From the NCBI GenBank assembly GCA_018710945.1, contig DVIW01000013.1, forward strand, positions 1 through 64,000: DNA of 64,000 nt, written 5' to 3'. Shown piece by piece: positions 52,502 to 63,318 of this stretch (positions within the stretch are counted from its first letter, which is position 1; each line of letters opens with the position of its first letter). The DNA comes from Candidatus Aphodovivens avistercoris. Its GTDB lineage: Bacteria > Actinomycetota > Coriobacteriia > Coriobacteriales > Eggerthellaceae. The notes beneath the pieces were generated by a model. That model made no database searches and was not told where the DNA came from. It saw only the letters and a program-made list of their open reading frames with translations. The position numbers and the translations under genes were made by a program.

Positions 52502-53872
52502 CTAGGCGGTCGCCGGCGCTTCCTTCTTGCCCGCGTCGGATGCAGCATCGGACGCCGCGCCCTCAGCGCCGCGGCCCGCAGCCGGCTCTGCATCCGAAGC
52601 CACTTCCGCCGCAGGCTGCGCAGCCGCCGCGTCGGCAAGCGCCGGCGCCTTGGCGGCCTGCGCCAGCTCGGCGGCGTCTTCCGCCTCCAGCTGCTGGGCC
52701 TTCTTCACCGCCAGCAGGTTCGCGAACGCGATGGCGCAGATGCCGGCGCAGAACTTGCCCGCCAGCACCGGGACGATGAGCGTGGGCTGGAAGTTCGCCG
52801 TGAACGACAGGTGGTCGCCGAACAGGAACGCGCAGCACACGGCGAACGCCATCACGATGACCTTGTCGCGCGCCTTCAGGTCCTTCACCATGGACAGCGC
52901 CGCCAGCACGTTGGCGGAGGCGGCAAGCAGGCCGGCCGTGGCGTCCGAGCTCAGGCCGAACACGCCGCCGATCTTCGCGAGCGGCTTGGCCAGGTAGCGC
53001 TTGATGAGGTACACCATGGGAAACGCGCCGCACAGCATCATGGAGATGGCGCCCGCCGTCTCAAGCGCGCGGAACACCTCCGGGTCGCCCTCGCTGGCGA
53101 TGATGGGATCGAACCCGAACGAGCCGAACAGCGTGGTGAAGATACCGGTGAAGTACTCGATGACCACCAGCACGAACACGATCTTCAGCGCCGCCTCCAT
53201 CACGCGGCCGAACACGATGAAGCCCTTGATCATGGCGTCGGGCTTGAACTTCAGGCCCAGCGCCAGCGCCACGCAGATGATGATGAGCGGCACGAGGTTC
53301 AGCCCGATCTGCCCGAATCCCAGCATCAGCTGGTAGGTGGCCTCGCCGTTGGTGGACACCGCCTCGCGGATCATCGGGTGTGACAGCGCGATGATGACGC
53401 TTGCCACCAGAACGCCGATGGGAATGGCCAACAGACCGCTCATCACGCCAAGTGCCAGGTACTTGCGGTCGCGCTTCTCCAGCATCTTCAGGGCCACGGG
53501 GATGGTGAACACGATGGTGGCGCCGGCCATGTAACCGGTCATCATGGCCATGATCCACCCTTCCTTCGTCTGGGCCAGCGCCTCGGCCAGCGGGTAGCCG
53601 CCCATGTCGATGGCGATGAAAGTGGTGGCGGCCATGGCGGGATCAGCTCCCACAGCGCTGTAGAGCGGCCCGAACACCGTGCTCACGAACGCGGTGAGGA
53701 ACGGCGCCGAGGCCATGATGCCCGCGACGGGCAAGAAGATGGGGCCCACGGTGTCGATGCCGGCCACGAACTGCTGGCCCAGCTCGCTTTCCGGCTTGAT
53801 GGCCGAGGCGATGGCGCCGGCCAGCGCACACGCCATGATGATGTAGACGACGACGGTTCCGATGAGTTCCAT
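52502..53872 (-). CDS. EutH-family transporter (ethanolamine/choline-type permease)
   Basis: 456 residues with about ten membrane segments. Segments such as GPIFLPVAGIMASAPFL, DPAMAATTFIAIDMGGYPLA, GYMAGATIVFTIPVALKML and AFPMVYLIKRYLAKPL match EutH, the ethanolamine permease. No other eut genes are present. Instead it lies 33 bases downstream of the licC-licA fusion, which suggests that it supplies choline or ethanolamine for envelope decoration, the job of LicB elsewhere. The last ~55 residues are an Ala/Glu-rich, probably disordered tail in the cytoplasm. Confidence 0.85.
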   Translation of the reverse strand: MELIGTVVVYIIMACALAGAIASAIKPESELGQQFVAGIDTVGPIFLPVAGIMASAPFLTAFVSTVFGPLYSAVGADPAMAATTFIAIDMGGYPLAEALAQTKEGWIMAMMTGYMAGATIVFTIPVALKMLEKRDRKYLALGVMSGLLAIPIGVLVASVIIALSHPMIREAVSTNGEATYQLMLGFGQIGLNLVPLIIICVALALGLKFKPDAMIKGFIVFGRVMEAALKIVFVLVVIEYFTGIFTTLFGSFGFDPIIASEGDPEVFRALETAGAISMMLCGAFPMVYLIKRYLAKPLAKIGGVFGLSSDATAGLLAASANVLAALSMVKDLKARDKVIVMAFAVCCAFLFGDHLSFTANFQPTLIVPVLAGKFCAGICAIAFANLLAVKKAQQLEAEDAAELAQAAKAPALADAAAAQPAAEVASDAEPAAGRGAEGAASDAASDAGKKEAPATA

Positions 53873-53905: not shown

Positions 53906-55687
53906 CTAGTGCAGCGCAGCGTCGGATTCGTACAGTTCCAAAGCGTAGGCGCCGTAGACCTTCACGGCCTTGTACCACAGGTAGAGCCACTCGCCCACCG
54001 GGTCGCCCGTGGCCTCCTTGTACAGCGCCCACACGAACCAGTAGTAAGCGGCCAGCGCCGTGTAGGCCATGCAGTGCCGCAGTTCCGCCCGCGTGGGCGT
54101 GCGCTGGAAGTAGGCGGCCAGCACGCGCTCCGCCTCGGGCACGGTGTAGTCCGAGCAGCAGATGAAGGTGCCCAGGTCGCTGGCGTAATCCGACATGGCG
54201 GAGTACTCCCAGTCGATCAGCGTCACCTCCTCGCCGTGGACGAGGAAGTTCGGCGCGTAGAAGTCGTTGTGGCACAGACACGGCGCCACCCCGTCGGCGC
54301 GCACGGCCTCGGCCAGCCGCGCGGCGAGGCGCTTCAGGTCGTCGAAGTCCGAGAACGTCGGGTAGGTGCGGGCGCCCAGCAAACCCACGATGCCGCATGC
54401 CTGGTCGTACAGGTCGAAGGTCCACTGCGACGTCTCGCCGCAGGCATGCAGCTTGCGCCCGAGCGCCAGCCCCTTCTCCACATGCGCTGGGTCGTGGTAG
54501 TCGAACTCCACGCAGTCGGGAACGTAGCGCGAGATCTTCCAGCCGAGCTCGGGATCCTCGTAGATGAAGGTGTCGTCCACGTCGAGCTTCTTGGCTATCG
54601 CCTGCGAGAACGCCTCGCTTTTGCGGTTGATGATCTCGTCGGTTCCCGCGCCCGGGTGACGGTAAACGTAGGCGCGCCCATCCACGGTGAAGCGGAACGA
54701 GAGGTTGGTGAGCCCCTGCTTGATGGGCACGATGCCGCAGATGTCCGCGCGGTCGCAGTGCAGCACGGCGCAGATGTTGTCGAGGATCTTCGAATCGACG
54801 TTCAGGATGAAGTCGCGGTCGAACTCGCGCAGCTCGTCAAGCGAGTCGAACTCGTGGATGACGCCCTCGGGGTACGCGCGCATCACCATGTCGAGCTCGC
54901 GCACGTGGTCGGCGAAGATGTCCTCCCACAGCTTCGGCGCGGTCTCCGGGCGGTCGTATTCGGCTTCCAGGATCTCCACGAAGCGGCGCGAGAACGCGCG
55001 GTCGAAGTAGGCGTGCCCCAGCATGCCGTAGGCGTCATGGCCGCCCACCGCCACGCGCGTGATGCGGTTGCCGGCACCGCAGGTCAGGCAGTACTCGTCG
55101 GTCTCGCCCGGGAAGAACACGGCCGCGTAGTACGCCTGGTAGACGTAGGACTCGAACACGTTCTCGGTGAAGTAGTCGTCCGACGAGCAGATGTAGGTGT
55201 TGCCCAGCTGCTCGCGCACGAGCATGAGCGTGGAGTTGTTGTTGCGCGCGGCGTACTGCTCGTTCACGCGGATCTTCACGCCGAAGAGGTCCTCCAGGTA
55301 GAAGAAGGCCTCCTTCATGTAGCCCACCACCACGGTGATGTCGTCGATGCCCGCCTCTTTTAGCTGGCGGATCTGGCGCTCGATGAGCACCTCGCCGCGC
55401 ACTCGAAGCACGCCCTTGGGGCGCTCGTAGGAGATGGGGGCGAAGCGCGAGGACAGCCCCGCCGCCATGATGACGGCGTTGTCCACCTTGTAGGGCGCAA
55501 GCGCCGCCCATCCCGCGTCGGTCAGCGCGAAGCCGTCCACCTCGCCCCGTTCGGCGACGGCGCGGTACGCCTTGTTCGCCGCCCCCAGCGACACGTCGCA
55601 CGCTGCGGCGAGGTCGCGCTGGCTGGCGATGCCCGAGTCCTTCGCCAAGGCGGCCAAGACGGCGAACTCCTGCTTGGATAACGTCAT
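53906..55687 (-). CDS. Winged helix-LicC cytidylyltransferase-LicA choline kinase fusion
   Basis: 593 residues in three parts. 1-68: winged helix (SQRDLAAACDVSLGAANKAY). 69-300: LicC-type nucleotidyltransferase (AVIMAAGLSSRFAPISYERP, YMKEAFFYLEDLFGVKIRVN, NNNSTLMLVREQLGNTYICS). 310-593: LicA-type kinase with phosphate loop IKQGLTNLSFRF, catalytic CLCHNDFYAPNFLVHG and metal IDWEYSAMSDYASDLGTF. It would turn choline or ethanolamine into the CDP derivative that LicD uses. The first domain could make the protein its own regulator at the palindrome in its promoter. It is followed by the EutH-like gene. Confidence 0.9.
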   Translation of the reverse strand: MTLSKQEFAVLAALAKDSGIASQRDLAAACDVSLGAANKAYRAVAERGEVDGFALTDAGWAALAPYKVDNAVIMAAGLSSRFAPISYERPKGVLRVRGEVLIERQIRQLKEAGIDDITVVVGYMKEAFFYLEDLFGVKIRVNEQYAARNNNSTLMLVREQLGNTYICSSDDYFTENVFESYVYQAYYAAVFFPGETDEYCLTCGAGNRITRVAVGGHDAYGMLGHAYFDRAFSRRFVEILEAEYDRPETAPKLWEDIFADHVRELDMVMRAYPEGVIHEFDSLDELREFDRDFILNVDSKILDNICAVLHCDRADICGIVPIKQGLTNLSFRFTVDGRAYVYRHPGAGTDEIINRKSEAFSQAIAKKLDVDDTFIYEDPELGWKISRYVPDCVEFDYHDPAHVEKGLALGRKLHACGETSQWTFDLYDQACGIVGLLGARTYPTFSDFDDLKRLAARLAEAVRADGVAPCLCHNDFYAPNFLVHGEEVTLIDWEYSAMSDYASDLGTFICCSDYTVPEAERVLAAYFQRTPTRAELRHCMAYTALAAYYWFVWALYKEATGDPVGEWLYLWYKAVKVYGAYALELYESDAALH

Positions 55688-55801: not shown

Positions 55802-55904
55802 GCGCATGTAAACTATGAACATCGCAACGGCAGAATGCGGGGCAGCCGGAGGCAGGGCGCGCGGCCCTGCGTTCCGTTGCCCTGCCGCTGCCGCGAAGCG
55901 GCCG

Positions 55905-58900
55905 CTACTCGTCGGGGATCTCCCATTCCCGGCCGGTCAGATGCCAGTTGGAGAAGTCGAGCGCGTCGCCGACGATCTCGTACTCCTTGTACGCCACGTA
56001 CGTCCCGTCAGGCTGCACGGCGGTCATGAGGTAGCGGCGCACGCGGTCGGGGTCGTGCGGCTGGAACAGGTTCTCGCCGTAAGCCGAGCCGTCGCCGCCC
56101 AGCGCGTCGACCACCGTCGCCTGGATGTCGAAGTGGGTCACCGGCTCTTCGTTGACCTGCACCGCCGCGCGCTCGCCCGCCTCCCGTGCAGGCTTCGCCA
56201 GGATCAGGGGCGTCGAGGGGCCGTCGATGCTCTCGGAAAGGTACCATTCGCCGTGGTCGGCCGTCACGATGATGGTGGAGGAATCGTACACGCCCAGCTC
56301 CTTCATCTGGTTGAGGTATTCTTCCACTATCTCCAGGGAGCCGCGCGCCTGCTGGACGAGCGAGCTGTTGCCGTCACCCACGTAGCGCGCGCTCTCGTCC
56401 AGCACGTAGGGGTAGTGCGGCCCGGTGAGGTGGATGAAGCGGAACGCCCCGCCCTCCGCCGCATCGTCAAGGGCGATGCCGCGCTGCTGGAGCTCCGTGT
56501 AGTAGCCGGCGTCGTCCATGCGGTAGACGGCGGCGTCCGGATCAGATACCGCGGAGTCGCCCTCCCCGCCCGACTGCTCGCCGTCGGCGACCATCGCGCC
56601 GTTCAGCTCGTCGGTGTAGTACCAGAACCATGGCTTCAGCAGCCACGGAGCGTCGCGGTACAGGGCGCACTGCGCCAGGATGGACACCGTGCCCGCCGGA
56701 TCGACGGGAACGTCGACGCGGCGGACGTTGAGCGTCTCGTCCACGATGTGCTGGCGCACGTCGGCGGGCGCGTCGTTGAAGCCGGCGGAGTCGGAGTAGA
56801 CGCCTATCGAGCAGCCCGCTTCGGCGATGTCGTCCAGGTAGGCGCCATGGGCGTAGGCGTTGTAGAAGTACTCGTCGTAGGAACCCAGGCTCGCCACGGT
56901 CTGGCCGGTGAGCATGCTGGGGATGGCGTAGCGCGTGGGTATCATCGAACCGGTGGCGTTGCGGAAGTACGTGAAATCCTCGAACGCGTCCAGCGCATCG
57001 GGGTACGCCTCAAGCGTCTGGTCCATGTAGGCGGTGTCGAAGGTGTCCAAGACGAACACCACCACGTTGCGCTTTGGCGAGAGGTCGTAGAGCCCCTCTT
57101 CGGTCAGATCGACGCGCGCCTGCGCCGCCCCCAGCGCCTGCGGGCTGGCCACCAGGCTGGCGACGCCGACGGCCTGGACGACGACCAGGGCCGCCGCCAC
57201 GCCAAGGCCGCACACGCGCCACAAGCGCGGGCGGAACCGGCTGCCGACGACCGCCGCCACGATGGCGACGAGCCACACCGCGCCGGTGCCGTAGGCGATG
57301 GGCGCGAAATCGCGCCACGAGACGGCGTTGCCGTCTGCGGCGGGCAGCCCCTGGTTCATGAGCAGCGCCTGCAGGTAGCAGCACAGCCCCACCGCCAGCA
57401 CGACGACGAACCCGACGGTGAACGCCCTGCCGCGCAAGGCCGACAGCGCCAGCGCAAGCGCAGCGGCCACCGCCAGCGCAAACAGCGCCATCCACTGCCA
57501 GATGCTGCCCACGCCCAGAAGCAGGCTGTCGGCGTTGGCCGCCACCAGCTCGAACGGCGCCACGATGAACAGGGTGAACGCCAGGAAAGCCGCCGCCGCG
57601 AAGCCGTAGCCCAGCCGCGCGCGCCACCGCAGACGCTCGTCGGGCGACGCCGCACGCCCCCGCCCGCGCACCGGCGGCACGGCTCCCGCAGCAGCGGCCC
57701 CGTCAGTGCGCCGGGCCGCCGGCAAGGCCGCACGGGCGTCGGCGTCCTCGCCCTCGTTGGGAACGATGAGCCCGTCCACCACGCGGTGGAGGTCGCCTTC
57801 CACCTCTTTGCGCGCGTTCTCGTCGATCTTCAGCAGCGCGAACAGCTTCTTGCGCGTCTTTCGCAGCGCCACGCCCGCCACCGCCGACAGCGCCACGGCC
57901 ACGCCGGCCAGCGCCTGGATGGTGTAGGTCATCACCGACGGGTCCACGTAGGCGTAGGCGGGCTCGGCCAGGAAGGGGAAGGCCAGCGCCGTGGCCAACG
58001 CGGCCTCGGGCGCCCACGAGAGCGCTTTCGCCGCCGCGCCCTTCGCCTTCGCCGCCTTCTTCGCAGCGCGCCCCTTCGCCGGCCGCTCCTCCGTCCCGCC
58101 GGCGCCCGGCGCGCCGTCGGAGCGGGAAGCTGCCGCCCCCTCGCGCTCCTTCCGCTGTCGCTGCAGCTCCAGCAGGCGGTCGAGCACCCACGCGCCCGCC
58201 GCCTCGGCGCCCGACCCCAGGTTGAACACCGTCTCGCGCGTCACCTGTGCGATGCGGTCGCGCCAGGCGTCCTGCTCGTCCAGCATTCCCGCCACCGTGT
58301 CGCCGATCCGGCCCACCTGGTCCACGTCCAGCGAGACGCCCACCGCATCGCGCAGCGAGATGTCGGTGGGCTCGATGCCCAGCTCCTGCCAGTCGGGGTT
58401 GCCCACCTTCATCGGCGTGTTCACGAAGATGCAGGGCTTGTTCGTGGAGAACGCGAACTCGTAGGCCACGGTGGACCAGTCGGTGATCAGCACATCAGAG
58501 GTGAACACCGTCTCGTTCGACGAGAAGTCGCGCTCGAACGAGAGCTCGTCTTCCGGCACGTCCGCGTAGCGCGCCAGGATGGCCTCCCAGCGCGGGCGGT
58601 AGCGCTTCACGTACTCGGGATGCGGACGCACGATGACGCGCCAGCCGCGCCCCAGCAGGCTTTCCAGCATCTCGTCAAGGCAGGAGTCGGGGATGCAGCC
58701 CTCCTGCCACGACGGCCCGATGAGCACGGTGGGCTTGCGGCCCGCATCGGCGCCCTCCCGCGCGCGGCGCTCCTGCAGCTGCTCATAGCCTGCGATCACG
58801 CGGTCGAGCAGGTCGTAGCCGCAGGGCACGAGCGTCTTCTTCCGCGTGCCGTGCAGCTCTTCGGCGCGGCGCAGCTCTTCTATCTGGTGCGGCCCGACGC

Positions 58901-60059
58901 ACAGCACCGCATCGTAGTTGTCGAAAGCGGTTTTGGTCGGCGTGAGGTGCGTGCTGGTCATGTGATGGAAGGCGAACACGTACTCGGTGTCGCTGCGCAC
59001 GTAGGAGCGCTTGATGTAGTAGGTGTCCAAATCCTCCAGCGTGGCCACCACCATGTCGGCGTCCATCTTCATCATCAGCGTGATGATGCGCTTCGGGCCG
59101 ATGTAGTAGGGGCGGATGCGCGGCTGCTCTTCCGCGATGCGGAAGATCTGGTCGTCGGGGTCGTTGGTGACGTAGTGGATGTCGGCGTCGGAGTTCGCCA
59201 GCAGCCACTCGATGATGCCCTGGAAGTACTTGTAGAAGCCGCTGCCCTCGGAGTAGAACACCAGATGCTTGCCCACCACGTTGAAGAAGCGCTTGTAGTC
59301 GGCCTTCTCGCGCTTGGCGTTCGGGTCGCGCTGCCACCATTTGCGGTCGGACTTGTCCAGCGCCTCAAGCTCTTCCAGCTCGACGCGGCTGGCCGCAAGC
59401 TCCGCGTAGTCGATGTGCTTCGACGGCTTGATGATGACGTTGCACAGCGCCTGGATGGCAATGGAGGTGAGGTTCGAGCACACCCAGTAGAAACCCATGC
59501 CCGTGGCCACAAAGATGCCCAGCACGAACGACAGCGCGATGGACAGACCGTTGGTCATGTTCTTCTCGGCGCGCGACTGCTCCTTCTGCAGCGGGTTGAT
59601 GCGGTTCTGGGCGAAGCCCATGACGATGGCGGACAGCCCGGCGGCCAGCGGCATGAGCCACGAGACGCCGCCGTCCTCCACCGGCACCATGCCCAGAAGC
59701 TCGGTGCCCGGCGCACCGTGGTCGGTGACGCCGTGGATGACGTCCACCAACCCGAACAGGATTATCACTTGCACCGCCAGCGGCACCAGGCTCAGGAGCG
59801 GGTGGTACTTGCGCTGCTTGTACAGCTCGTGCTGCTTGTCGCCGATGGTCTCGCGGTCGCCGAAGTACTTCACCTTGATGCGGTTGAGTTCGGGCATCAG
59901 CTGCACCATGACGATGCTGTTCTTCTGGCACCACAGGCTCATGGGCAGAAGGATAACCTTCACGATGACGGTGAACAGCAGGATGGCGAGCCACCAGTTG
60001 CCCGTGAGCTGGTAGCACGGCTGCATGATGAGGTTGAGCACCTGGGCGAGCAGTTCCAT
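55905..60059 (-). CDS. Three-domain envelope protein: YidC-like + TagF-like glycerophosphotransferase + LtaS/sulfatase-like
   Basis: 1384 residues. 1-220: YidC/Oxa1-like insertase (NWWLAILLFTVIVKVILLPM, then QLMPELNRIKVKY; Lys34 at the hydrophilic-groove position usually held by Arg). About 260-630: CDP-glycerol:polyglycerophosphate transferase (GPSWQEGCIPDS, VIVRPHPEY, DVLITDWSTVAYEFAF). 635-682: Ala/Lys linker. 683-970: membrane segments. 998-1384: alkaline-phosphatase-fold domain with Asp1005 (VVFVLDTFDT), Thr1042 (SMIPTRYAIPSMLTG), VTADHGEWYL and VTHFDIQATVV metal ligands. The ATG at 60059 fits the YidC start. It lies between licD and licCA, so it probably builds or places a phosphate-containing polymer outside the membrane. 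Confidence 0.88.
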   Translation of the reverse strand: MELLAQVLNLIMQPCYQLTGNWWLAILLFTVIVKVILLPMSLWCQKNSIVMVQLMPELNRIKVKYFGDRETIGDKQHELYKQRKYHPLLSLVPLAVQVIILFGLVDVIHGVTDHGAPGTELLGMVPVEDGGVSWLMPLAAGLSAIVMGFAQNRINPLQKEQSRAEKNMTNGLSIALSFVLGIFVATGMGFYWVCSNLTSIAIQALCNVIIKPSKHIDYAELAASRVELEELEALDKSDRKWWQRDPNAKREKADYKRFFNVVGKHLVFYSEGSGFYKYFQGIIEWLLANSDADIHYVTNDPDDQIFRIAEEQPRIRPYYIGPKRIITLMMKMDADMVVATLEDLDTYYIKRSYVRSDTEYVFAFHHMTSTHLTPTKTAFDNYDAVLCVGPHQIEELRRAEELHGTRKKTLVPCGYDLLDRVIAGYEQLQERRAREGADAGRKPTVLIGPSWQEGCIPDSCLDEMLESLLGRGWRVIVRPHPEYVKRYRPRWEAILARYADVPEDELSFERDFSSNETVFTSDVLITDWSTVAYEFAFSTNKPCIFVNTPMKVGNPDWQELGIEPTDISLRDAVGVSLDVDQVGRIGDTVAGMLDEQDAWRDRIAQVTRETVFNLGSGAEAAGAWVLDRLLELQRQRKEREGAAASRSDGAPGAGGTEERPAKGRAAKKAAKAKGAAAKALSWAPEAALATALAFPFLAEPAYAYVDPSVMTYTIQALAGVAVALSAVAGVALRKTRKKLFALLKIDENARKEVEGDLHRVVDGLIVPNEGEDADARAALPAARRTDGAAAAGAVPPVRGRGRAASPDERLRWRARLGYGFAAAAFLAFTLFIVAPFELVAANADSLLLGVGSIWQWMALFALAVAAALALALSALRGRAFTVGFVVVLAVGLCCYLQALLMNQGLPAADGNAVSWRDFAPIAYGTGAVWLVAIVAAVVGSRFRPRLWRVCGLGVAAALVVVQAVGVASLVASPQALGAAQARVDLTEEGLYDLSPKRNVVVFVLDTFDTAYMDQTLEAYPDALDAFEDFTYFRNATGSMIPTRYAIPSMLTGQTVASLGSYDEYFYNAYAHGAYLDDIAEAGCSIGVYSDSAGFNDAPADVRQHIVDETLNVRRVDVPVDPAGTVSILAQCALYRDAPWLLKPWFWYYTDELNGAMVADGEQSGGEGDSAVSDPDAAVYRMDDAGYYTELQQRGIALDDAAEGGAFRFIHLTGPHYPYVLDESARYVGDGNSSLVQQARGSLEIVEEYLNQMKELGVYDSSTIIVTADHGEWYLSESIDGPSTPLILAKPAREAGERAAVQVNEEPVTHFDIQATVVDALGGDGSAYGENLFQPHDPDRVRRYLMTAVQPDGTYVAYKEYEIVGDALDFSNWHLTGREWEIPDE

Positions 60060-60134
60060 GGCGAAAAAGCCCCTTCTAGCGCGGGTTCCCGTTCCCTGGG
60101 CGCGGGGCATCCGGCCCGCGTGGCAAGACGCCTA

Positions 60135-60140
60135 AGTATA
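60135..60140 (-). promoter_or_regulatory. -10 element of the three-domain gene
   Basis: TATACT on the minus strand, just behind the licD1 terminator, with a poor -35. The start near 60128 would give a leader of about 70 bases. Confidence 0.45.
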
Positions 60141-60153
60141 GTTCAAGGCGGGG

Positions 60154-60204
60154 AAAAGGGCGAGGGGCCGCCGCGGCAATGGCGCGCCGGGGCGGCCCCT
60201 CGCC
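60154..60204 (-). terminator. Terminator after licD1
   Basis: A 13-bp perfect stem GGCGAGGGGCCGC (60159-60171) with 60192-60204 and a 20-base loop that can pair further, followed on the minus strand by CTTTTCCCC. It lies directly behind the licD1 stop codon and separates the upstream group from the three-domain gene. Confidence 0.7.
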
Positions 60205-61056
60205 TCAGTGCGGCCCGAAGTCCAGCTCGACCGGCCGGTGCTGCCGGCGCTGCTCGACCGGGGGCAGCTGCCGCCAATCGCCGAACATGATCTCCAGGTA
60301 GCGCTCCGCCCCGCCCGGCACGGGAAGCTTTCGACCCTCGAACGGCTCGAGCCGCGTCGGCAGGAAGATGGATGCCGGGTAGGACCCGAACTGCGCGTAG
60401 GAGCCGCAGAACACCTCGTCGCCGGGGTTTTCCGCCCCCTTGGCAGCCGCCGCGGAGAACCGGCGAAGCAGCGCTTCGTGGCTGGAAGCCAGCCGGAGGA
60501 CCCCGTGCGCCGCCCGCACCGCCGCGCGCTCAAGCGCTCCCAGCGCGCCGCCGTGGGGCACCGCGACGGAAGCCGAATGGTACACGTACATCACGCTCTG
60601 CCAGAAGCGGCAGGCCTTGAGCTGCTTGGCGGCGACCGCCGCGTCGGCGCTCAGCGCGTCGTAGGGGAACACGTCGATGCCAATGCCCTGCGCGATGCCC
60701 GCCCGCAGCGTCTCGTCGGTGTAGAACTTGGTGTCGACCAGCCAAACCTTGGCGAACAGCGCCGACTGGCGCGGGTTGCCCACCGGCTCCGACACGCAGT
60801 ACCCCTCCCCCAGCGCCGCGGGCGCGACTTCCAGGAACCGGTCGTAGTCGGCGCGCAGCATGCCCACGTCCACGTCGTCGTCCCAGGGGATGAAGCCCCC
60901 ATGCCGCAAGGCGCCCAGCGCGCTGCCGGAATCGAGGAAGTACGCGATGCCGTGCTCCGCGCATACGCGGTCGATGTCCTCCAGGATCTTCAGCTCCACC
61001 CGCTGCAGATGATGCAGCGTCTCGTCGTCGTAGCGGCCCGTCGCTTCGTCAGGCAT
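60205..61056 (-). CDS. LicD-family phosphotransferase (first copy)
   Basis: 283 residues, nucleotidyltransferase fold. The LicD signature is YFLDSGSALGALRHGGFIPW followed by DDDVDVGMLRADYDRFLEV, with the metal-binding Asp residues, and then GIGIDVFPYDAL. LicD moves phosphocholine (or a similar group) from the CDP form to a sugar of a surface glycan. The C-terminus (EIMFGDWRQLPPVEQR, FGPH) is also typical. The ATG at 61056 lies five bases after the flippase stop. Confidence 0.9.
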   Translation of the reverse strand: MPDEATGRYDDETLHHLQRVELKILEDIDRVCAEHGIAYFLDSGSALGALRHGGFIPWDDDVDVGMLRADYDRFLEVAPAALGEGYCVSEPVGNPRQSALFAKVWLVDTKFYTDETLRAGIAQGIGIDVFPYDALSADAAVAAKQLKACRFWQSVMYVYHSASVAVPHGGALGALERAAVRAAHGVLRLASSHEALLRRFSAAAAKGAENPGDEVFCGSYAQFGSYPASIFLPTRLEPFEGRKLPVPGGAERYLEIMFGDWRQLPPVEQRRQHRPVELDFGPH

Positions 61057-61061
61057 CTTCC

Positions 61062-62324
61062 CTACCGCGCCTTTCCCTCATGCTTCCAATACCGCATCTT
61101 CTCCCGGGCGAACAGGAAGAAGACGATCCCGAACGCCGCCAAAAGGACCGCGCAGGACGCCGCGTAGGCCACGCTTGCCCCCTGCACGCCCGACGCGGCG
61201 ACGAGCGGAGAGGCCACCAGGCTCGTGACGGCGATGGCGACGGCGTAGCCGATGAGCACGCCGCTCTGCGCGCGGATCACCACCAGCGCGTTGTAGAACA
61301 CGTTGGAGGCGGACAGCAGGCCGCCACCCGCAAGCAGCACCGCAAGGGCAGGCAGGCAGCCTTCCAGATCGACGCCGTAGAACAGCTCCAGCACCGGGAT
61401 GCCCACCGCCAGGCAGGCAAGCTCCACCGCCGCGGTCATGCCCGCCACGACGCCCAAAAGCCGCACGATGATGCGCGCGAAGCCGCGCGCGTCATGGCCT
61501 GCCCACAGCGCGGCCAAGGTGGTCAGCGACGGGCGGATGAAGAAGTTCACGAACAGGTTGATGACGAACGAGGGCATGAACAGGATGTTGAACACGGTCT
61601 GCATGTGCTCGGTGCCCACCGCGTCGATGGCGTACTTGCACACGTTGCCCAGGTAGATGGACATGAACGAGCCGATGAACAGCGGCAGGCAGGCAAGGAA
61701 GATGCCCCCGAGGGCGCGCGACGAGAAATCGGGACGTCCCACCGTGCGGATCCTGCGCAGCCGCGGGATGTCGTAGCAGGCGATCCACACCGCCTCGCTT
61801 GCCGTGGCCGCGATCATCGCCGCCACCACGTCGCCGCAGGCGAGAAGCACCGCCACGAACAGCGCGATGGATATGACCGAGCGCCACACCGTCGAGAAGC
61901 CCGCGATGTCAAGCCGCTCCTCCTTCTGGAAGGCGGCGAACCAGTACTGGGCCAGCGCCTCGAACAGGCGGTACGCGCACAGCGAGTACGCCACGAGCGC
62001 CTTGTGCGCGTCGTAGCCGAACGAGAGCACGTACACGATGCTGACGACGACCATGAGCGCGCAGGTGACGATCTTGAAGCCCAGGTACTGCGCGTAGGTG
62101 AAACGGTTCTGCGCGTCGGTGGCGAAGAAGGTGGTGGCCTCGAACACGCCGACGGTCAGCATGAGCTGCGCGATGGCGTAGCCGATGGAGAACACGCCGC
62201 CCTCCTCGCTGCCGCACACCCGCACGACGACGAGCAGCAGCAGGAACGACGACAGCGCGTACACCGCGCTGCCCGCGCCGTTCCACAGGTAGATCCGTTT
62301 GCGTGATGCGGTTTCGCGGAGCAT
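61062..62324 (-). CDS. Wzx-like polysaccharide flippase (MVF/MOP superfamily)
   Basis: 420 residues with about 12-14 membrane segments. The start RIYLWNGAGSAVYALSSFLL and the loops YAIAQLMLTVGVFEATTFFA and LACLPLFIGSFMSIYLGNVC are typical of lipid-linked-oligosaccharide flippases. It would turn the undecaprenyl-linked glycan to the outer face. I chose the ATG at 62324 with AAGG upstream; a longer start at 62378 would overlap licD2. Neighbours on both sides are LicD genes. Confidence 0.86.
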   Translation of the reverse strand: MLRETASRKRIYLWNGAGSAVYALSSFLLLLVVVRVCGSEEGGVFSIGYAIAQLMLTVGVFEATTFFATDAQNRFTYAQYLGFKIVTCALMVVVSIVYVLSFGYDAHKALVAYSLCAYRLFEALAQYWFAAFQKEERLDIAGFSTVWRSVISIALFVAVLLACGDVVAAMIAATASEAVWIACYDIPRLRRIRTVGRPDFSSRALGGIFLACLPLFIGSFMSIYLGNVCKYAIDAVGTEHMQTVFNILFMPSFVINLFVNFFIRPSLTTLAALWAGHDARGFARIIVRLLGVVAGMTAAVELACLAVGIPVLELFYGVDLEGCLPALAVLLAGGGLLSASNVFYNALVVIRAQSGVLIGYAVAIAVTSLVASPLVAASGVQGASVAYAASCAVLLAAFGIVFFLFAREKMRYWKHEGKAR

Positions 62325-62361
62325 GGGGCGACCTTCGTGCTTGGCAGGCGCGCAGCGCTGG

Positions 62362-63267
62362 CTAGCGGGCAACATCATCCAAGGTCAGATGGGCATACGG
62401 CCCAAAGTCAAGGATCTCGGGATAGTGGATGGTTCGCTGCTCCGCAGGCGGCGGGGTCATGTAGTCGCCGTAAAGGTTGGAAAGCAATTTCTCCGCCTTG
62501 TTGGCGATGGGGACGGTCATCGACTCGAAGGGAACCATGCGCACCGGAAAAAGATCGTCCAGCTCGTAGACGTTCCAGAAGCGATCAGTATCACAAAGAA
62601 ACCCGACGCGCTTGGTGGGAGTCCCGTCATAGCGCGTGTGCCATGCGTAGGCCCTCCCGTTAAGGTCGATGGAGCGAACGCCCGGCAGATTGAGAAGAGC
62701 CCTCATGGCAGTCGTCCCCATTTTGAGCACCTTGCCCCGAACGCCACGCGCAAGAATGCAAGGTCGCTTGACAAGCTTGCAAATTGCAAGCTTGTTGAAC
62801 AGCCACGATCTCCATGCCTGCCTGCGGAACGCCCGATCATCATCTGCCAGGTTGTCGAGAGGAAAAAGATCCAGAAAGATGCACGAAGGAAAATCCATGG
62901 TCGCCAGGGCGTCATCGCGGAACTCGGTACCCTTCAGCGCCAAACGCGCCGTGAGCATAGGATAGCGAGGATGCGTCTCCGCGCTGATCACGTCGTATTT
63001 TTCGGGAAAATCTCGCCTAACCGCCGCACTAAGGCGCTCCAAGTCGCAGCGCATGATGCAGATATCGGCATCGTCATCCCAAGGGATGAAGCCCCCGTTT
63101 CGCAAAGCTCCCAAAGCGGTTCCGAACGAAGCGATCCAAGGTATGCCCTCTTTTTCGCAAACAAGCGAGAAATCCCGAAGCATCATCAATATGATGGCGT
63201 GAAGCGTCTCGAGCCGCTCATCGCGATTGTCCTCGCTTGCCACAACACCGCTGGCCACTCTGCCCAT
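62362..63267 (-). CDS. LicD-family phosphotransferase (second copy)
   Basis: 301 residues. The signature is SFGTALGALRNGGFIPWDDD followed by ADICIMRCDLERL, then SCIFLDLFPLDNL, and the end NLYGDYMTPPPAEQR...DFGPY parallels the first copy. The two copies are clearly diverged, so they may act on different sugars or positions. The base composition is less GC-rich than in the genes left of 62.3 kb. The ATG at 63267 has a strong GAGGAGGTGAT site about ten bases upstream. It is 51 bases downstream of the partial membrane-protein gene. Confidence 0.9.
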   Translation of the reverse strand: MGRVASGVVASEDNRDERLETLHAIILMMLRDFSLVCEKEGIPWIASFGTALGALRNGGFIPWDDDADICIMRCDLERLSAAVRRDFPEKYDVISAETHPRYPMLTARLALKGTEFRDDALATMDFPSCIFLDLFPLDNLADDDRAFRRQAWRSWLFNKLAICKLVKRPCILARGVRGKVLKMGTTAMRALLNLPGVRSIDLNGRAYAWHTRYDGTPTKRVGFLCDTDRFWNVYELDDLFPVRMVPFESMTVPIANKAEKLLSNLYGDYMTPPPAEQRTIHYPEILDFGPYAHLTLDDVAR

Positions 63268-63318
63268 CGCAGGATCACCTCCTCGCAACCTCTCGAAACA
63301 AGATTCCTCAATATACCA

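Follow-up and report, generated by a model that had tools for sequence, protein, structure and literature searches.

A gene joining YidC-like, TagF-like and LtaS/sulfatase-like domains in Candidatus Aphodovivens avistercoris: a repeatedly fused module, probably of a surface-decorating pathway

Results

The fused gene and its domains

We analysed a 64,000-nucleotide stretch of DNA (the window; contig DVIW01000013.1, positions 1 to 64,000, assembly GCA_018710945.1) from the Eggerthellaceae bacterium Candidatus Aphodovivens avistercoris, which carries on its reverse strand a single gene joining a YidC/Oxa1-like domain, a TagF/TarL-like transferase domain, a short membrane segment (the YVDPS segment) and an LtaS/sulfatase-like domain (Table 1). 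These parts make up a module whose genes have merged on several occasions and which probably belongs to a surface-decorating pathway. The frame runs uninterrupted from ATG 60059 to the stop at 55905, and the equivalent start codon is used in relatives; an in-frame ATG upstream of it, at 60110, is less likely to be the start. The original prediction, made from the letters of the window, of three modules in one open frame is borne out by Pfam matches that each exceed the curated cut-off (60KD_IMP, 106 bits; Glyphos_transf, 38 bits; Sulfatase, 33.5 bits), by predicted folds that match solved ones and by full-length fusions in other genomes. Codon-position G+C is coding-like along the entire gene, linker included, with a third-position value of 0.90-1.00. 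This composition, the lack of an internal start codon and the full-length fusions in several genomes led us to reject an assembly artefact or a lost stop codon as the origin of the fusion, and a fusion confined to the window genome was rejected on the last of these grounds. An antisense open frame (55815-60290, forward strand, 1491 amino acids (aa)) exceeds the fused gene in length and in all likelihood only mirrors the G+C-rich coding sequence opposite.

Table 1. Parts of the fused gene and neighbouring genes (window positions; TM, transmembrane).
Feature	Position	Strand	Residues and remarks
Fused gene, YidC-like + TagF-like + YVDPS segment + LtaS/sulfatase-like	55905..60059	-	1384 aa
YidC/Oxa1-like domain	59415..60059	-	1-215; groove Lys34; five predicted TM segments; Pfam 106 bits and model match
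TagF/TarL-like GT-B transferase domain	58155..59297	-	about 255-635; predicted cytoplasmic; Pfam 38 bits and model match
Ala/Lys-rich linker	58014..58139	-	641-682; without in-frame start codon
Internal signal-peptide-like segment	57951..58013	-	683-703; AYA before Tyr704
YVDPSVMTYTIQA membrane segment (YVDPS segment)	57855..57950	-	704-735; stand-alone protein (about 90 aa) in many Clostridia
Five predicted TM segments ahead of the outer domain	57135..57620	-	814-975; model, hydropathy
LtaS/sulfatase-like extracytoplasmic domain	55908..57074	-	996-1384; Asp1005, Thr1042, His1215, Asp1268, His1269
LicD-family protein	60205..61056	-	118 bits
Multi-spanning membrane protein, polysaccharide-flippase-like	61062..62378	-	sequence only
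LicD-family protein	62362..63288	-	117 bits
LicC-LicA-like fusion (winged helix, NTP transferase, choline/ethanolamine kinase)	53906..55687	-	family match
EutH-type ethanolamine transporter	52502..53872	-	408.8 bits

Residues 1-655 were modelled with AlphaFold from a 24-sequence alignment (predicted local distance difference test score (pLDDT) 88), and the YidC part of the model fits the structure of B. halodurans YidC (3wo7_B; Z 18.1, root-mean-square deviation 2.9, 199 residues). The positively charged groove residue, Lys34, is present in 88 of 88 YidC-TagF homologues in which the position is filled, out of 90 aligned, which come from Coriobacteriia, Clostridia and a small number of bacteria outside these classes. 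The fold and the basic groove residue are shared with the YidC/Oxa1/Alb3 insertases (PF02096), but the domain is a second, accessory copy joined to a transferase: a separate housekeeping yidC lies elsewhere in the genome, within rpmH-rnpA-yidD-yidC-jag, which excludes the fused gene as the housekeeping YidC, and its product has Arg at the place where every YidC-TagF homologue has Lys.

The second half of the same model matches TagF (3l7k, Z 19.7) and TarL (8va1, Z 19.4), Z values which are also common to other enzymes of the glycosyltransferase B (GT-B) fold, and searches of PDB sequences with this part gave no TagF match. The only match to Glyphos_transf (PF04464) above the cut-off in the window genome is that of the fused gene, and it is partial, covering profile positions 111-292 of 367 (38 bits, cut-off 22.1). 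His365, Arg478-Pro-His-Pro (RPHP, 478-481) and Asp527-Trp-Ser (DWS, 527-529) are invariant in the YidC-TagF homologues with the position filled (88 of the 90 aligned), and both motif histidines, His365 and His480, are kept throughout; by position and from what is known of TagF, a histidine of the domain would be the equivalent of TagF His444. The domain shares the GT-B fold and the conserved motif positions with the teichoic acid polymerases TagF and TarL, but is divergent from them, is joined to YidC and belongs to a genome in which no CDP-polyol maker was recognised.

For residues 656-1384 (AlphaFold, pLDDT 80), the model has a sulfatase/phosphonate monoester hydrolase/YejM fold (Z about 20). 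Sulfatases and YejM are among the top 50 of the fold search and LtaS is absent from these, which does not exclude it; by sequence profile, the PDB protein that matches best is LtaS (4.5e-10), with the Asp1005 region and Asp1268-His1269 (DH motif) paired with LtaS positions. The NCBIfam equivalog for lipoteichoic acid synthase gave 19.6 bits, against a threshold of 970. Asp1005 is found in 58 of 60 sequences, Thr1042 and Asp1268-His1269 in all those with the position filled, and His1215 is also conserved. A TM bundle followed by an outer alkaline-phosphatase-type domain, and the Asp, Thr and Asp-His positions, are common to this part and to the LtaS and YejM-type enzymes of the sulfatase fold (PF00884), but there is an Asp where LtaS has Glu, an extra YVDPS segment lies in front, and the His of 'THFDI' is not conserved across the sulfatase-part family. 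This last residue had been named as a key residue together with Lys34, RPHP, DWS, Asp1005, Thr1042 and Asp1268-His1269, all of which are conserved.

The topology was derived from hydropathy and a positive-inside charge count. The first five segments leave the TagF-like domain in the cytoplasm. A Lys-rich stretch follows, after which the signal-like segment leads out, the YVDPS segment crosses back, and five further segments put the sulfatase-like domain outside. This agrees with the cytoplasmic transferase and extracytoplasmic hydrolase or transferase that had been predicted.

The junction between the two halves

There is no usable in-frame start codon between residues 625 and 688, so the second part with its signal segment is not separately translatable. 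Upstream of the putative cut, all 52 full-length homologues that contain the segment have Ala at -3 and Ala or Gly at -1 (AxA in 51, AxG in one), and small residues occupy both positions in 15 of 15 small YVDPS proteins. Since all full fusions retain this signal-peptide-like segment with its AxA-type site, signal peptidase may divide the finished product between Ala703 and Tyr704.

Split and fused forms in relatives

A strong match was found in 48 of 138 Eggerthellaceae genomes. At most Coriobacteriia loci with enough sequence, YidC-TagF (about 650 aa) and the sulfatase are encoded by two neighbouring genes, and the separate sulfatase gene begins with its own signal-peptide-like segment, which ends in AxA before YVDPS. 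In many Clostridia, YVDPS is a membrane protein of its own (about 90 aa), in several cases encoded directly after YidC-TagF, and at some of the loci with a separate YVDPS protein a sulfatase-like gene lacking YVDPS lies upstream. Some genomes (loci L059 and L061) have two or three sulfatase-part genes next to one YidC-TagF gene.

Full fusions are found in the window genome and G115, in Gordonibacter sp. An230 (G118), in G193 and G203, in G307, G405 and G421, and at the incomplete locus L159; G116 was left out of the count on account of assembly gaps at the locus, and in G150 a single in-frame stop separates the two parts. The fusion label changes four times on a tree from a quick search with one support measure, in which the An230 row is a long branch, and three of these changes are forced by well-supported branches. 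By this tree, full fusions arose at least three to four times. The An230 fusion (L056) is less certain because its ATG, 39 codons upstream of YIDPS, follows a 10-G tract at the fusion point, which could be a slippage switch or an assembly error.

The gene adjacency in most Coriobacteriia relatives and the repeated fusions support the functional coupling of the modules that the original prediction had proposed. Its idea of one obligate machine, however, is not supported: most relatives have intact separate YidC-TagF and sulfatase genes, a finding that the prediction itself had named as counting against it, and the junction keeps a signal-like cut site.

Gene neighbourhood and genome content

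The fused gene lies in a co-directional series in the order LicD, flippase-like membrane protein, LicD, fused gene, LicC-LicA, EutH. No family match was obtained for the 438-aa flippase-like protein in Pfam, NCBIfam and PDB sequence searches. Homologues of LicA, LicC and LicD are thus all present, and the transporter at the locus is EutH rather than LicB, so that ethanolamine is as possible as choline. The pneumococcal lic/tac pathway for phosphocholine teichoic acid (LicABCD, TacF) likewise has LicA, LicC, LicD and a flippase, for which the window has two LicD genes and a possible flippase, but the window has EutH where lic/tac has LicB, and the YidC-TagF-LtaS-like fusion is absent from lic/tac. 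Third-codon-position G+C drops from above 0.9 to about 0.6-0.75 between window position ~62300 and contig position 98500, suggesting an acquired glycan gene block.

In the draft window genome, there was no match to the TagD model, no TarI-like match and no match to Ppm; the two IspD-family matches fit IspD and GlmU. Of the good Eggerthellaceae genomes, 29 of 30 that have YidC-TagF also have LicC-LicA, compared to 31 of 62 that lack YidC-TagF, by a hand count uncorrected for relatedness. The best 80 loci of the genome-collection search include 23 from outside Coriobacteriia, several of them metagenome bins with possibly wrong labels. Among these 23, a LicC/PntC-type nucleotidyltransferase lies within about 4 kb in 19, Ppm or Ppd was found in 10 and LicD in one, and the same queries gave no match on 30 control loci (111 kb). 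The fused homologue of Gordonibacter sp. An230 directly adjoins genes for Ppm, Ppd and Fe-ADH. In phosphonate loci, mutually related proteins with no assigned family are encoded upstream of YidC-TagF (L180:3027-3944 and L168:2657-3919), and an argininosuccinate-lyase-like gene is upstream of it at three loci (L182:2416-3918, L185:2489-3901 and L186:1189-2556).

In phosphonyl tailoring (Pnt), PntC makes CMP-aminoethylphosphonate, and the later tailoring steps have been called enigmatic (Rice et al., PMC6697681). YidC-TagF lies beside Ppm, Ppd and cytidylyltransferase genes in Clostridia and other phyla, but the window genome is without a Ppm match. One organism of that study, A. rimae ATCC 49626, has the YidC-TagF/sulfatase gene pair (locus L154), with no Ppm gene in the surrounding 4 kb that were retrieved. 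Neither TagF nor an insertase is named in the main text of that study (PMC6697681).

Together, the neighbour genes suggest CMP-activated small head groups, such as choline or ethanolamine phosphate or phosphonates, rather than CDP-polyols as the donor. The polyol-phosphate chain that had been proposed for the window protein is thereby weakened, given also that only IspD and GlmU-like members of the IspD family were matched in the draft genome and TagD was not. The passage of such a polymer through or along the YidC-like domain, likewise part of the original prediction, is purely hypothetical.

Discussion

We tentatively favour a reading in which the gene is the fused form of a conserved envelope-tailoring module, with an inner transfer of a CMP-activated head group and an outer LtaS-like action on the product. 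The observations behind it are the domains, the conserved residues, the gene order, the repeated fusion, the AxA site and the genomic association with cytidylyltransferases. In this scheme, EutH uptake and the LicC-LicA enzyme would supply CDP-ethanolamine or CDP-choline, the most likely donor here, with phosphonates taking this place in other phyla. The TagF-like domain, in the cytoplasm, would move the head group from its CMP conjugate onto an acceptor in the membrane, either a lipid or a glycan linked to one. The YidC-like domain would keep the transferase at the membrane and may aid the crossing of the product, and the LtaS/sulfatase-like domain, outside, would complete a surface polymer by moving or removing a phospho group. 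The protein itself probably threads the membrane, and a signal peptidase cut at Ala703/Tyr704 would restore the two proteins that are separate in relatives. The donor, the acceptor, the direction of transfer, the cleavage and any membrane-crossing role are what we propose on these grounds.

Several points weigh against this reading. The cleavage is predicted from sequence, and the absence of TagD and TarI is read from one draft genome with two family models. The pair lies away from LicC-LicA in many Eggerthellaceae, so the link is one of co-occurrence, which may partly reflect relatedness; the control loci are few and mostly from Coriobacteriia. By analogy, the donor could be another, as the nearest studied relatives of the TagF-like domain use CDP-glycerol or CDP-ribitol, and head-group transfer could fall to the two LicD proteins encoded nearby, in which case the TagF-like domain would do something else.

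A teichoic-acid-like polymerase, in which a polyol-phosphate chain is assembled on a lipid anchor by the TagF-like domain in the cytoplasm, with the YidC-like domain for anchorage and the LtaS-like domain acting on the chain outside, appears unlikely. It would explain the TagF/TarL fold with its conserved motif residues and the similarity to LtaS, and the nearby LicD genes and sugar transferases fit a glycopolymer locus. Choline phosphate offers no site for chain extension, and hence a simple polymerase role is unlikely if it is the donor. The strain-variable tagF/tarIJ loci of E. lenta (PMC10234575) count for a polymerase; the lack of TagD and TarI-like matches and the phosphonate and LicC/PntC neighbours count against it, as does the divergence of the domain from PF04464 when full-scoring TagF genes lie elsewhere in relatives, as in G115, where they adjoin a probable TarI, distant from the fused gene.

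A more specific form of the favoured reading, which we consider doubtful, is a lipid-carrier relay: the TagF-like domain would load a membrane lipid with the head group, the YidC-like domain would scramble it to the outer leaflet and the LtaS-like domain would use it as the donor for an outer polymer, on the model of LtaS, which uses phosphatidylglycerol as its donor. Lipid scrambling in vitro is known for E. coli YidC and for further insertases of the Oxa1 family (PMC10491306), which makes a relay possible and is not evidence for it here. The inner transferase, the YidC-like domain and the LtaS-like enzyme are constantly paired, several genomes place the pair among unrelated genes instead of in a glycan locus, and YejM/PbgA and LtaS are among the fold or profile relatives. 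However, a lipid acceptor is purely putative, and the known acceptors of TagF are lipid-linked glycans. It is improbable that the YidC-like domain serves specifically to insert pathway partners such as the short YVDPS protein, with the fusion doing no more than coupling synthesis. The full YidC fold with its groove lysine, and a small single-span YVDPS protein encoded just after YidC-TagF in several Clostridia, would suit such a role, but the signal-peptide-like starts of the YVDPS proteins suggest an ordinary export route, and a housekeeping YidC is also present.

Extending the favoured head-group reading, we would venture, as a rather unlikely proposal, that the YidC-TagF family provides the transferase still missing from both phosphonate and phosphocholine/ethanolamine surface tailoring, with the insertase fold handling or scrambling the lipid-bound product and the LtaS-like partner completing the transfer outside. 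In the open-access literature searched, we found no description of the YidC-TagF fusion, the module, its repeated fusion or a link to head-group activation. The parts each belong to known families. In common gut anaerobes, the module would connect the making of surface polymers with a fold of the Oxa1 family, and YidC-TagF is a candidate for the step that follows cytidylyl activation in phosphonate tailoring. The family also offers a clear case of pathway genes merging, from three to two to one.

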